A DNA stretch of 64,000 bases from Epilithonimonas sp. JDS (lineage in GTDB: Bacteria; Bacteroidota; Bacteroidia; Flavobacteriales; Weeksellaceae), in assembly GCF_021261315.1 (NCBI RefSeq), contig NZ_JAJSAX010000002.1:744001-808000 (forward strand), given 5' to 3'. Each line of letters opens with the position of its first letter. Position 1 is the first letter of the stretch. A model generated the notes under the pieces. That model searched no databases. It worked only from the letters and a program-made list of their open reading frames with translations, and was not told where the DNA came from. Both the position numbers and the translations under genes were made by a program. Below are positions 3,608 to 59,729 of this stretch, piece after piece.

Positions 3608-3663
3608 AGTTTAAATCTAAAACCTAAATTCTGCCACCTGGAATCTAAAACCTAACACCTACC
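3608..3663. repeat. 7-nt-period tract, 8 units
   Basis: Eight consecutive degenerate heptamers (AGTTTAA, ATCTAAA, ACCTAAA, TTCTGCC, ACCTGGA, ATCTAAA, ACCTAAC, ACCTACC) run without a break of phase to 1 nt before the thioesterase ATG. They fill nearly the whole intergenic gap. Confidence 0.8.
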
Positions 3664-3664
3664 A

Positions 3665-4105
3665 ATGAATCCATTAGAACATATGAAAACCCTCATCGGG
3701 AAAGAATTCGCAGATTCGCCGTCGCCCTTTATGCGCTGGCTGAAACCGACTGTAATCTCTGTCGAAAAAGGACATCTGGAATTCCAGTACACGATCCGCC
3801 GGGAATGGCTGAATCCTATTGGGAATCTGCACGGCGGCGTGACTGCAGCGATTATCGATGACGTTTTAGGAGCGACAATGTTCTCTTTGAACGAGCCAAC
3901 TTTTTATACAACCATCAATAATGTCATTGACTATTTTGGAATTGCGAAAGAAGGTGAAAATATCATTGCGGAAACACACATCACGAAATTGGGTAAACAG
4001 TTTGTCAATGCTACCTGCGAAATCTGGAATGCCGAAAAAACAAGATTGATCGCCAAAGGAACATCCAATCTATTTAAAACCGAAATTAGGAAATCAAATG
4101 CCTAA
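3665..4105 (+). CDS. PaaI-family hotdog-fold thioesterase
   Basis: A 146-residue hotdog-fold protein. The active-site helix region reads GNLHGGVTAAIIDDVLGATMF at about residues 55-75, with the HGG motif and acidic residue expected of PaaI/YbgC-like acyl-CoA thioesterases. Length is normal for the family. It hydrolyses an acyl-CoA or acyl-ACP thioester in the cytoplasm; the acyl group cannot be deduced. fabF lies 118 nt downstream on the same strand, which suggests but does not prove a lipid-related role. Confidence 0.85.
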   Translation: MNPLEHMKTLIGKEFADSPSPFMRWLKPTVISVEKGHLEFQYTIRREWLNPIGNLHGGVTAAIIDDVLGATMFSLNEPTFYTTINNVIDYFGIAKEGENIIAETHITKLGKQFVNATCEIWNAEKTRLIAKGTSNLFKTEIRKSNA

Positions 4106-24794: not shown

Positions 24795-25298
24795 TTAAAA
24801 TTGCTGATAGAGATAGCGGTCGGGATAATTCAGTTTTTCACTTTTTCTCTGGCCGTTGATGACAATATGGATGATATTCATCTGATCATCATACAGATTA
24901 TAAAGAAAACTGACTGCAGTTTCTACTTTTTTCGGAACAGATAATGGCTCAGATTCCAGATAAATATTGACACTCTCGTGATCTTCTTCAAAACCTACAT
25001 AATTTACCTTTACAAATTGATTATCAGCCTTTAATTTCAGATATTCTGCGGCGTAATTTTCTAATTCTTTGTTGATTTCAGCTTTGTATTTCGGATCTAG
25101 GAAATGAACTGACTTTCCGTACTTTTTGTTGAGTGCATTTTCCAGATCATCCATAAAAAAACGTCCTGTAACCTCAAAAGTCCTGGATTTTGAATTATAA
25201 TTAAACTCTACCGAACCCACGTGGTAAGGATGCAACGTGAATGATAAATTATAAATGATGAATGATAAAATATAAAATATAAAAAGCTGTTTTTTCAT
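24795..25298 (-). CDS. DUF6702-family exported protein
   Basis: A 167-residue protein. The N-terminus MKKQLF leads into a hydrophobic core and then HPYHVGSVEFNYN, the start of the DUF6702 domain that fills the rest. ATG 25298 is chosen because residues before it are polar. The hydrophobic core is coded by a DNA tract with a 7-nt period (25236-25284) and so repeats every seven residues (FIFYILS, FIIYNLS). DUF6702 genes often sit with HupE/UreJ-type genes in Bacteroidota, as here, where the HupE-like gene is divergent 63 bp away. Function unknown. Confidence 0.78.
   Translation of the reverse strand: MKKQLFIFYILSFIIYNLSFTLHPYHVGSVEFNYNSKSRTFEVTGRFFMDDLENALNKKYGKSVHFLDPKYKAEINKELENYAAEYLKLKADNQFVKVNYVGFEEDHESVNIYLESEPLSVPKKVETAVSFLYNLYDDQMNIIHIVINGQRKSEKLNYPDRYLYQQF
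25236..25284. repeat. 7-nt-period tract, 7 units, inside the DUF6702 signal-peptide coding region
   Basis: On the plus strand: CGTGAAT, GATAAAT, TATAAAT, GATGAAT, GATAAAA, TATAAAA, TATAAAA, with no break of phase. Since 21 nt is seven codons, the protein shows a seven-residue repeat in its signal peptide. Confidence 0.8.
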
Positions 25299-25361
25299 CT
25301 CTAGAAAGTAATTGAAGTCAAAATTAATCATTATTTTCGTACGGTTTTCAGAAATTGAACG

Positions 25362-25928
25362 ATGAAGGATTTTCTATTTTATTTGCAGCTGGGCTGGGAT
25401 CACATTATTTCTTTGGATGCTTTGGATCATCAGCTATTTATTCTGGCTCTAATTGCAGCTTACAGTTTCAAAGATTTTAAACGGCTATTGATCTTGGTGA
25501 CGGCTTTTACCATTGGACATTGCATTACGTTGGCTTTATCCAGCTTTGATATTATCCGCGTGAAAAGCGCTTGGATTGAGTTTTTGATTCCCTGCACAAT
25601 TGTGATTACTGCTCTGGATAATATTTTGTTTAAAGGAAAACATCCTTATCAATATTATTTTGCCCTGTTTTTTGGTTTGATCCACGGAATGGGATTTGCG
25701 AACACTGCGCGAATGATGCTGGCGAAAGAACAAGGCATTACAGTACCGCTTTTAGGCTTCAATATCGGCTTGGAGTTGGGACAAATTGCGATGGTTTTGA
25801 TTATCCTGATCATCTTCACGCTTGTCACGAAATTTACCAAACTAAATCAACGGGACTGGCTTCTGATCACCTCATCTGCTGCCGGAGCTGTGGCCTTGCA
25901 AATGGCTTTGGAGAGAATGCCTTTTTAA
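25362..25928 (+). CDS. HupE/UreJ-family membrane protein
   Basis: A 188-residue membrane protein with about six helices. The family pattern is present: GWDHIISLDALDHQLFILAL near the start, the helix with FTIGHCITLALS, and GLIHGMGFANT, all with His and Asp residues inside helices that suggest metal (nickel or other) passage. HupE proteins are linked to metal uptake in other bacteria; the metal for this branch is unknown. Divergent from DUF6702 with 63 bp between the start codons, so the two probably share control. Confidence 0.82.
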   Translation: MKDFLFYLQLGWDHIISLDALDHQLFILALIAAYSFKDFKRLLILVTAFTIGHCITLALSSFDIIRVKSAWIEFLIPCTIVITALDNILFKGKHPYQYYFALFFGLIHGMGFANTARMMLAKEQGITVPLLGFNIGLELGQIAMVLIILIIFTLVTKFTKLNQRDWLLITSSAAGAVALQMALERMPF

Positions 25929-25963
25929 ATTGTACAATGTAGAATGTACAAATTATAATGTAT
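25929..25963. repeat. 7-nt-period tract, 5 units
   Basis: ATTGTAC, AATGTAG, AATGTAC, AAATTAT, AATGTAT in phase, starting at the stop codon of the HupE-like gene. Confidence 0.65.
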
Positions 25964-57314: not shown

Positions 57315-58595
57315 CTAATACTGAAAATTCCTAAAAGCTTCCAGCGTCTTATCAATCTCCGCATCGCCAATTGCAGACGAAATAAACCAAGTTTCATAGC
57401 CACTTGGCGGAAGGTAGATTCCCTGTTCCAAAACCTGATGAAAAAGATTGTTGAACAAGCCAATATTGGAATTATTCACCTCATTAAAATTACTCGCAGA
57501 AGTCACATCAAAGAAAATCGACATCATACTTCCCTTTCGGTTGATTCTGTGTTTGATGCCTTTCTCATTCAGGATTTTTCCAATCTCGAAATCCAAGGTC
57601 TCTGTGGTTTTTGCTAATTTGTTATAAAATTCTGGGTCTTGTTTTATCAATTGCAACGTTTTGAGTCCAGCTCGCATTGCCAAAGGATTTCCGCTCAAAG
57701 TTCCGGCTTGGTAAACGTTTCCTCTTGGCGACAGGTAATTCATAATTTCGTTTCGTCCAGCAAACGCACCTACTGGCAATCCGCCACCAATCACTTTTCC
57801 GTAAGTCACCAAATCGGCTTTCACATTTAAAGCTTCCTGTGCGCCACCAAATGCCAATCGGAATCCCGTCATCACCTCATCAAAAATCAAAAGTGCACCA
57901 TTCGCGTCACAGATTTTTCTTAGGTTTTCAAGGAAATTATTCTCCGGCAAGATGCAACCCATATTCCCGGCAATCGGTTCTACGATGATGCAGGCAATCT
58001 GTTCTGGATTCGCTTTGAAAAGGTCTTCAACTTGTTCAAAATTATTGTACTCAGCCAGCAAAGTATCTTTCGCAGTTCCTTGCGTTACACCTGGCGAATT
58101 GGGGCTTCCAAACGTTGCCATTCCACTTCCCGCCTGAATCAAAAACGAATCCGAATGTCCGTGGTAACAACCTTCGAACTTGATGATTTTCTCTCTTCCA
58201 GTAAATCCTCTTGCCAAACGAATTGCGCTCATACAAGCTTCAGTTCCGGAAGAAACCATTCTGATCTGGTCGATATTCGGGACATTTTCTACAATGTACT
58301 TTGCAATCTCAGTTTCCAATTCTGTTGGCGCTCCGAAAGAAAATCCTTTCTCAGCCTGCAATTTCAAAGCTTCCAAAACTTCGGGATGCGTGTGCCCCAA
58401 AATCGCTGGTCCCCAAGAATTGATGTAATCGATATAGTTTCTGTCGTCTTCATCGGTCAGGTAAGCACCTTTCGCAGACTTCATAAAAAGTGGAACGCCA
58501 CCCACAGATTTGAATGCACGAACCGGCGAATTCACACCGCCCGGAATATATTTGTACGCTTCTTCAAAAAGCGCTGAACTTCTTTGGTATAACAT
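57315..58595 (-). CDS. hemL: Glutamate-1-semialdehyde 2,1-aminomutase
   Basis: A 426-residue PLP enzyme that turns glutamate-1-semialdehyde into 5-aminolevulinate for haem synthesis by the C5 route. Marks: [16 protein letters not shown] at the start, [24 protein letters not shown], the Asp in [12 protein letters not shown], and the PLP lysine in [19 protein letters not shown]. Full length. No other hem gene is in the window. The region upstream (58600-58669) is a 7-nt-period tract, so its promoter must lie in or beyond that tract or the gene is read from the next one upstream. Confidence 0.96.
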
Positions 58596-58599
58596 TGTT

Positions 58600-58669
58600 G
58601 TTGATAGTTGTTGGTTGATAGTTGTTAGTTTTAAATCTAATTTCTAACATCTGGTTTCTAAATTCTAAG
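58600..58669. repeat. 7-nt-period tract, 10 units
   Basis: GTTGATA, GTTGTTG, GTTGATA, GTTGTTA, GTTTTAA, ATCTAAT, TTCTAAC, ATCTGGT, TTCTAAA, TTCTAAG run in phase from just after the hemL start codon (minus strand) into the stop codon of the glucosaminidase gene. It is the longest and most regular such tract in the window and fills the whole gap. Confidence 0.85.
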
Positions 58670-59729
58670 ACCTCGGTTTCTTATTCTGAAGATAAATCAA
58701 TTGTCCGGATTTTGGCTGTTCGCCTTGGTTCATCCTGTTTTTGCTGTACAGTTTTTTCTCCTTGATGGCAAATTTCTGAGCAATATCGTGCATCGTTTCG
58801 CCAGTTCCGGCTTTGTAAGTCGCTTTGTTGCCAGATGAATTTTTACCTTCCAGGAAGATAATGTCGTTTTTCGCCAGTTTAGAACTTTCCAATTCGTTGT
58901 ACTTCATCAGACGTTTTTCGCTGATCCCGAATTTCTTTGATATTTCAGAAATATCAGCATCAACTGGCATTACAAAGAATTTCACACCATCATTCGGATG
59001 ATTTTTCACGAGAATATTTTTCAGAAGTGCAGTTCTGGTTTTGGAATCTACAATATCAGAAACTTTCGATTGCTGATTAGCGTAAGAACCATGAGAATAA
59101 TCCACTTTTATAGTCGGCGGCGTCACTTTGTCATTCTGTCTTTCCTGACTCAGCTGAGCCATAAAAACCGCGTCATTATTAAGAGAAGGATACAATTTCA
59201 AGATCGCATAATACACCTCATCTTTGCTCGTGTTATCAAACTCGTAAAGTTTATAGCGCTCAATTTTATCAATCAAAATATACGCATATCTCGGATTTGT
59301 GGCGTAACCGGCTTTCTTCAATCCGTGCGCCCAGGCTTTGTAATCTTTCGGATTAAGGTCAAAAAGTTTTGTGTAATATTTTCTGGTCGCCAGGAAAACC
59401 GAGTGGTCTTCGTACGATTGTTTCGGATCTTCATACACACGGAAACACTCATTGGGTGCGTCGTCTGTGTGGCTCATCGTCTTGCCCGTCCAGTCTTCTT
59501 TGCATTTGATTCCGAAGTGGTTTTTCCCCAGTTGTGCCAAACGGCTTTGTCCGCCGCCGGTTTCCAAAAGTCCCTGAGCCAAGGTGATGCTCGCCGGAAT
59601 CTTATATTTCTCCATTTCTTCCACCGCGTACGGCGCGAATTTCTGGATGTATTGGTCTTCCGTCTTCCAGGTTTGAGATTTCACCAAGCCTAAAACACTC
59701 ACAAAACCAATCACTAATAACTTTCTCAT
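58665..59729 (-). CDS. Secreted N-acetylglucosaminidase with C-terminal LysM domains
   Basis: A 354-residue peptidoglycan hydrolase. Signal peptide (1-18), glucosaminidase domain of the FlgJ/LytD type (about 25-170) with SITLAQGLLETGGGQSRLAQ (Glu as acid) and NHFGIKCKEDW, then a linker and two LysM-like cell-wall-binding modules (about 245-295 and 305-350; DADISEISKKFGISEKRLMKYN and GETMHDIAQKFAIKEKKLY). It cuts glycan strands in the periplasm during growth or division. Its stop codon lies inside the 7-nt-period tract. Confidence 0.9.
   Translation of the reverse strand: MRKLLVIGFVSVLGLVKSQTWKTEDQYIQKFAPYAVEEMEKYKIPASITLAQGLLETGGGQSRLAQLGKNHFGIKCKEDWTGKTMSHTDDAPNECFRVYEDPKQSYEDHSVFLATRKYYTKLFDLNPKDYKAWAHGLKKAGYATNPRYAYILIDKIERYKLYEFDNTSKDEVYYAILKLYPSLNNDAVFMAQLSQERQNDKVTPPTIKVDYSHGSYANQQSKVSDIVDSKTRTALLKNILVKNHPNDGVKFFVMPVDADISEISKKFGISEKRLMKYNELESSKLAKNDIIFLEGKNSSGNKATYKAGTGETMHDIAQKFAIKEKKLYSKNRMNQGEQPKSGQLIYLQNKKPRS

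Follow-up and report, generated by a model that had tools for sequence, protein, structure and literature searches.

Short tandem repeats in bacterial genomes are usually interpreted as slippage switches or else regarded as junk. In the opa genes of Neisseria, CTCTT pentamers stand in the coding sequence of the leader peptide, and switching occurs at about 1e-3 per cell per generation (PMC3745409). Direct repeats of the heptamer TAACTGA were described for marine Beggiatoaceae, some Cyanobacteria and five Bacteroidetes (MacGregor 2015, PMC4679880). In the Beggiatoaceae genome they mostly point at a start codon a few nucleotides away. One of their strands is stop-rich, while the other one is open and found in open reading frames (ORFs), where it would yield a seven-residue repeat, mostly near protein ends (PMC4679880). 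For Flavobacterium johnsoniae, translation was reported to start without a Shine-Dalgarno sequence, mRNA structure and a low number of AUGs near the start being of importance (PMC6847099).

Here, we describe a heptamer tract inside the coding sequence of a DUF6702 gene of Epilithonimonas sp. JDS. The window, i.e., the whole stretch of DNA that was analyzed, comprises 64,000 nucleotides. With the TAACTGA repeats the family of this tract has in common that tandem heptamers are dispersed and mostly intergenic (PMC4679880). What the tract shares with opa is a repeat unit whose length is indivisible by three, placed in the coding sequence of a signal peptide, a predicted one in our case (PMC3745409). 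The heptameric repeats of Xanthomonas and Nostoc are similar in their unit length, their heterogeneous copies and their intergenic, genome-wide occurrence (PMC4692102).

The DUF6702 gene and its seven-base period

The DUF6702 coding sequence occupies positions 24,795-25,298 on the minus strand and encodes 167 amino acids. The assignment is based on the translation and on Pfam PF20420 (E 9.6e-37, 126.6 bits versus a gathering score of 24, the query being the ORF from 25,331). This longer ORF was ruled out as the gene, since the ATG at 25,298 is kept in 20 orthologues, the next two residues being KK, KN or KR (IK in one case), and several of them possess an in-frame stop shortly upstream of it. 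Twenty nucleotides upstream of the start codon, the sequence TAATTTTG (25,319-25,326, minus strand) was found in 9/9 aligned species. It is a putative promoter -7 element, fitting the Bacteroidetes consensus TAnnTTTG. The divergent neighbour at 25,362-25,928 (plus strand) encodes a HupE/UreJ family protein (Pfam PF13795, E 8.7e-47), and a TGTACAA/AATGTAG period-7 tract was observed at 25,931-25,962 of the window, two bases past the stop codon of this gene.

Codons 5-21 of the DUF6702 gene (25,236-25,284, minus strand) consist of seven degenerate heptamers, as judged from the sequence, Tandem Repeats Finder, the period score and synonymous recoding. On the coding strand, from 25,284 to 25,236, they read TTTTATA (twice), TTTTATC, ATTCATC, ATTTATA, ATTTATC and ATTCACG. 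Sequence and coordinates of this period-7 tract were as the original prediction had described them. The seven units are related, not identical: 2.9 copies are perfect and the remainder is degenerate. Tandem Repeats Finder reported 25,240-25,284 with a period of 7/14, and the sole perfectly repeated portion, 2.9 copies of ATAAAAT (plus-strand reading) with 100% matches, was located at 25,265-25,284. This portion would be the likeliest place for slippage in the tract. In translation, FIFYILS (residues 6-12) is followed by FIIYNLS (residues 13-19), the two being identical at 5/7 positions. Both belong to a signal peptide-like N-terminus of 22 codons, reaching from the ATG to the residue before HPYHVGS (25,233-25,298, minus strand) and defined by orthologue length and hydropathy. 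The MKK start and the hydropathy fit a putative Sec signal peptide.

In a period scan of 464 kb, consisting of the window and 20 segments of 20 kb from the JDS genome placed regardless of tracts, the DUF6702 tract scored 23 and the next period-7 tracts at most 14.5. The 400 kb genome sample happens to include no other place of the heptamer family, and the strength of the other family tracts is therefore not shown by it; one of them (L038) is about 100 bp long. Among 336 genes (395 kb) no lag-7 segment other than the DUF6702 tract scored 11 or more, and when all these genes were recoded synonymously 20 times, the maximum was 15.5, which is below the score of the tract. Given the DUF6702 peptide, a lag-7 identity of 0.68 was observed versus 0.54 expected from random codons, with p = 0.004 using genome codon usage and p = 0.014 using signal-peptide codon usage. 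Thus, the protein alone accounts for part of the period and codon choice for the rest, and the excess due to codon choice is modest.

Using a cutoff of p < 0.03 (genome codon usage), 11 of the 20 orthologues were found at lag 7 and 10 at the multiple lag 14, compared to 2, 2, 0, 1 and 1 at lags 4, 5, 8, 10 and 11; these are related species and not independent counts. For homologues from other genera, a set of 53 that omits 14 loci of the genus Epilithonimonas, the same cutoff gave 6 at lag 7 and 0-4 at five other lags. Five species without the heptamer form, belonging to a nine-species group, showed lag-7 identities of 0.47-0.60 with other units. As a period is found in the other units of the relatives and in 6/53 homologues from other genera, it may partly be a codon habit of T-rich h-regions. 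Bulk autocorrelation of intergenic DNA in the 400 kb sample was discarded as an argument, because the lag-7 excess (z about 4.2) is too weak beside lags 3 and 6 (3.6 and 3.4) and lag 22 (-3.3).

Orthologues and the history of the signal segment

The DUF6702 gene was found in 20 of 23 genomes of the genus; all 20 frames are open, and no frame-broken orthologue occurs among them. Several Epilithonimonas species are filed under Chryseobacterium among the named relatives. Three genomes (G009, G013, G020) yielded neither the gene nor its HupE neighbour, in a search that had no positive control and with G013 being 73% complete; there is thus no sign of frame decay in them. The stretch from the ATG to HPYHVGS comprises 22 residues in 19 of the 20 orthologues and 23 in one. 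Judged by eye, the heptamer form is present in four of them, namely JDS (G000), G005 (E. hispanica, L085), G012 and G014, and lacking in the other 16; no further species with it came up among the sequences inspected, which include the named homologues. The N-terminus is hydrophobic in all 20, with a best 10-residue hydropathy window between 2.39 and 3.42. If anything, the four heptamer forms are slightly less hydrophobic (2.39-3.01 versus 2.75-3.42 for the others). In a set of 67 named homologues, drawn from Epilithonimonas and from other genera and with start codons picked by a simple rule, 66 have 20-31 residues before the motif; the one exception, from a distant MAG, has 40 and is hydrophobic by eye.

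Sixteen orthologues lack the repeat and have an equally long hydrophobic N-terminus; thus, the repeat most likely took the place of an h-region that was there before, and neither created nor lengthened it. The original prediction had presented the tract as non-coding repeat DNA recruited as the h-region of the signal peptide. It does encode the h-region of a signal peptide-like N-terminus; that it created this region or set its length was not supported. Similarly, heptamer DNA had been expected to be missing or of different length in orthologues that keep the HPYHVGS-like sequence. It is missing in 16/20 while HPYHVGS is kept, but the length of the N-terminus is constant except for the single case of 23 residues. 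The Ser12-Ser19 spacing also occurs without the repeat: 12 of the 16 orthologues that lack the heptamer form have both serines, and Ser19-Phe20 is found in 16/16. The same peptide encoded by unrelated DNA, named beforehand as the finding that would make the period a coincidence, was not encountered: the three other species with YNLS- or CNLS-type peptides have heptamer-like DNA (30-32/36 nt identical over codons 9-20).

Trees were calculated with FastTree and IQ-TREE, the gene body being represented by the mature part of DUF6702 together with the HupE neighbour. The mature part of JDS is nearest to G004 (0.84), and codons 4-22 are only 0.46 identical to this species; the corresponding identities are 0.70 to G005, 0.74 to G012 and 0.72 to G014. 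The signal block rejects the gene-body tree (delta lnL 40.7, AU p 0.0005, IQ-TREE), a test based on 75 nt and on a gene-body tree of uneven support (40-100). The gene body rejects the block tree far more strongly than the block rejects the body tree. In the segment tree, species with the heptamer form are split from those with other forms with a support of 99.

Over the heptamer core (codons 9-20) JDS and G005 agree in 30/36 nt, and around it in 7/15 nt (codons 4-8), 3/6 (codons 21-22) and 5/9 (before the ATG). The agreement of JDS with G012 and G014 is 32/36 and 31/36 nt in codons 9-20, 8/9 before the start codon and 0/6 in codons 21-22. The 8/9 nt before the start codon correspond to TTTCTA(G/A)AG, which JDS, G012 and G014 have in common. 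These conflicting histories would reflect either an exchange of the segment between species or repeated overwriting by the same repeat. Start-of-gene segments can carry a history of their own, and readings of such segments call for caution.

A dispersed heptamer family at gene ends

Using a 26-nt heptamer pattern and a limit of three mismatches, 85 matches were found in the JDS genome versus 4 for the reversed control. The pattern was taken from the DUF6702 tract, so that the tract's own four overlapping matches (two with one mismatch) are circular and the others are not. For the 23 genomes of the genus, 1,283 matches were obtained versus 79 reversed. The 26-mer ATTCATCATTTATAATTTATCATTCA has an identical copy at an unlinked site in another species (G003). 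The heptamer family to which the tract belongs is degenerate and scattered over the genome, with a consensus near ATTTATC. The dispersed family, the recoding result and the identical 26-mer all bear out the earlier view of this DNA as a repeat and not a mere quirk of codons. At a stricter setting (two mismatches), 88 of 148 genomes of the bacterial family gave matches: Epilithonimonas 21/21 and others 67/127, with a wide scatter. We observed 132, 38 and 20 matches in G071, G033 and G055 from other genera, and none in 60 of the 127 sampled genomes from other genera. G108 and G114, two genomes from another genus, have many matches to the reversed control rather than to the heptamer pattern. Among the open-access papers listed for heptamers in Flavobacterium, Flavobacteriia and Chryseobacterium, we found no report of an ATTTATC heptamer family, going by titles and abstract openings, which is no proof of absence.

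The family is mostly intergenic, its ATTTATC strand pointing into start codons and its complement coming after stop codons. For 40 of 51 JDS tracts, the ATTTATC strand has a CDS boundary no more than 20 nt away on its 3' side; on the 5' side this holds for 5 of 51. The 40 boundaries are 24 start codons and 16 stop codons of genes on the opposite strand. The median distance to the boundary was 5 nt on the 3' side versus 69 nt on the 5' side, and the closer boundary lay on the 3' side in 45 tracts versus 6 (p 2e-8). Distances were taken from simple ORF calls (longest ORFs, first ATG). The 51 tracts derive from 53 after removal of L045, which counted as inside a CDS, and L054, which has no gene call on one side; the weak tracts L062, L075 and L079 were kept. 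Regions were taken from 51 of the 52 places other than DUF6702, C1:947691 being left out. The position of L045 inside an ORF is due solely to its open strand, which lets this ORF run on to an earlier ATG; given the N-terminus of TrmD-like proteins, L045 is probably a leader. In G001, among the best listed of 78 matches (20 regions, 1 of 23 tracts dropped), a boundary within 20 nt was found on the 3' side for 19/22 tracts and on the 5' side for 1/22.

Among the 54 JDS tracts examined the DUF6702 copy is the only one accepted as coding. By its position inside a CDS it departs from the family rule of lying outside genes, and its orientation and distance of a few nucleotides fit the rule only if one counts the first codon of the conserved mature part as a gene boundary. 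Over 53 tracts the ATTTATC strand contains 1.4% G, an ATG in 4 tracts and few stops, and the complement has an ATG in 50 tracts and, on average, stops in 2.96 of 3 frames. We were aware of the fact that the search pattern partly fixes the G, ATG and stop contents of the two strands; it does not fix the placement. The ATG and stop contents would likely explain the placement rule at the level of the mRNA. A possible one-way growth of tracts toward genes was considered and set aside in favor of such a putative selection on the mRNA.

Individual leaders and downstream tracts were followed through the genus. Just before a start codon, the leader at C12:545072 has a 20-nt core that deviates at no more than one position in 13 of 20 relatives and at 3-5 positions in the other 7; judged by eye, its conservation exceeds that of the preceding stretch. 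The heptamer leader at C12:552605 is common to G008, G011, G020, G022 and G017 (5/20 relatives), G021 has a remnant, and the remaining relatives lack it or have other DNA. Both comparisons were made with 20 of 22 relatives. Intergenic length at C12:552605 was rejected as a test of insertion versus overwriting, since the gaps range from 25 to 846 nt, some with extra DNA, and are too variable to tell. Compared to the 109-bp leader gap of JDS, the gaps in L161, L162, L165, L167, L174 and L175, i.e., G004, G015, G005, G021, G014 and G012, measure about 500-850 bp, and their content looks ORF-like by eye. One kind of gap is common to G004 and G012 and another one to G015, G005 and G014, yet G012 and G014 are sisters in the tree.

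After the stop codon at C1:496081, the 22 relatives have units of the GATAAAT type, TAATTGA, units of the TTAATTG or GTTGGTT type, or DNA without a period. TAATTGA arrays of 6, 14 and 21 perfect copies follow the stop codon orthologous to L033:1478 in L249 (G016), L250 (G009) and L253 (G010). At the same site, interrupted arrays of the TTAATTG type were observed in L245 (G014) and L246 (G012). Taken together, the arrays of both types look as if they grew and shrank. A palindrome-like element of the type CGCAAAGTCGCAAG...CTTTTGCGACTTT fills the gap after the same stop codon in L238, L240, L247, L248 and L254; the genomes with this type are G011, G015, G007, G021 and G002, from both main clades of the genus.

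Within the window, other units with a period of 7 were noted at comparable places next to genes. At 3,613-3,663, ATCTAAA, ACCTAAA and ACCTAAC heptamers occupy the gap up to the start codon at 3,665. At 58,596-58,681, between two minus-strand genes whose start and stop codons enclose 58,596-58,664, CTATCAA/CCAACAA stand directly before the start codon at 58,595, and TTAGAAA/TTAGAAT types lie just after, and reach into the end of, the gene stopping at 58,665.

Explanations and comparison with known systems

We give a probability of roughly two in three to the explanation that a coding copy of the dispersed heptamer family replaced a pre-existing signal-peptide h-region without change of length. 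Elsewhere, the G-poor strand makes up an untranslated stretch right ahead of start codons and its complement a stretch right behind stop codons. In the DUF6702 gene, a member of the family in translatable orientation would have overwritten the h-region of an existing signal peptide. In frame, the ATTTATC unit gives IYHLSFI, which is hydrophobic and free of stops, while the reverse contains two stops in three units. Of the two strands, the ATTTATC strand is the only one open to translation throughout, which would have made the replacement possible. The older state would then be represented by the 16 orthologues that lack the heptamer form, the replacement would have come by copying or recombination from a heptamer tract and not by many point changes, and the gene product would probably be exported as before. 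Gradual point substitution under codon constraint is still conceivable.

A special form of the replacement explanation, in which the heptamer form arose once and the start-of-gene segment moved between species by homologous recombination, is a possibility that we hold tentatively, with the odds somewhat against it. It would account for the conflict between segment and body trees, for the form split, and for the common sequence before the start codon of JDS, G012 and G014; in addition, quite different intergenic segments alternate among species at other sites, too. However, the agreement of JDS and G005 is much lower on either side of the core, and with such a short segment the power is limited. 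More doubtful is a further possibility, in which a process writing 7-nt-period DNA acts on gene-flanking sequence, overwrites it in place and reached the signal-peptide h-region in more than one lineage. Such a process would leave different units or copy numbers at one site across species with the period kept, and would have passed the start codon into the one kind of coding sequence able to bear it, the h-region of a signal peptide.

Another alternative is a coincidence of codons: in an AT-rich genome, the codons of a conserved hydrophobic peptide of the type LSF...LSF could recur every 7 nt by chance. The serines and the Ser19-Phe20 pair of orthologues without the heptamer form, the identity of 0.54 expected from the peptide alone and the lag-7 excess of relatives with other units speak for such a coincidence; nevertheless, a score beyond all recodings, the p-values for the DUF6702 peptide and the recurrence of the heptamers at unlinked sites, once as an identical 26-mer, make it improbable. 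A phase-variable switch as in Neisseria opa, in which gain or loss of a unit by slippage would alter the reading frame and so switch the protein off or on, is harder still to reconcile with the data. The unit is indeed not a multiple of three, 25,265-25,284 holds perfect copies, and the TAATTGA arrays demonstrate that heptamer numbers change between species; yet the tract is mostly degenerate, which is expected to lower slippage, 20/20 orthologues are in frame with a nearly constant N-terminus, and the genomes without DUF6702 lack a HupE match as well. We consider least probable of all that a non-coding repeat created the signal peptide core and lengthened the protein. The repeat does lie inside the coding sequence and supplies most residues of the h-region, but the 16 orthologues without it have a hydrophobic N-terminus of the same length, and the homologues from other genera are similar.

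With the replacement as the preferred explanation, the heptamer family is characterized by a placement and strand rule at gene ends and by one leader kept in much of the genus, and a single copy was absorbed into a coding sequence with the protein length unchanged. This offers a testable case of how a protein can accept a non-coding repeat: solely at places where the open strand, by chance, codes for something that the protein requires anyway.

Compared to the TAACTGA repeats, the JDS unit is near ATTTATC, degenerate and found beside several other unit types. As in Beggiatoaceae, many tracts point at a nearby start codon (24 of 51 JDS tracts within 20 nt), the DUF6702 copy being an exception. 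The start-facing strand is open to translation in the ATTTATC family and stop-carrying in the TAACTGA repeats (PMC4679880), and the DUF6702 coding copy differs from the latter in replacing a signal peptide core at constant length. While the Xanthomonas and Nostoc repeats are G-rich and possible quadruplex formers (PMC4692102), the ATTTATC unit is AT-rich with one strand almost without G. An ATTTATC leader, without ATG and with little structure, fits the start rules of F. johnsoniae, although heptamer leaders are not mentioned in the abstract of that study (PMC6847099). The opa repeats vary in copy number and switch the gene (PMC3745409), whereas the DUF6702 orthologues show no such variation between species, their N-terminus being constant across 20 species, the frame open in 20/20 and the array degenerate. 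Overall, the TAACTGA heptamers are the nearest known kind for the family; for a leader-peptide repeat that can change the frame, the closest parallel is given by the opa pentamers.
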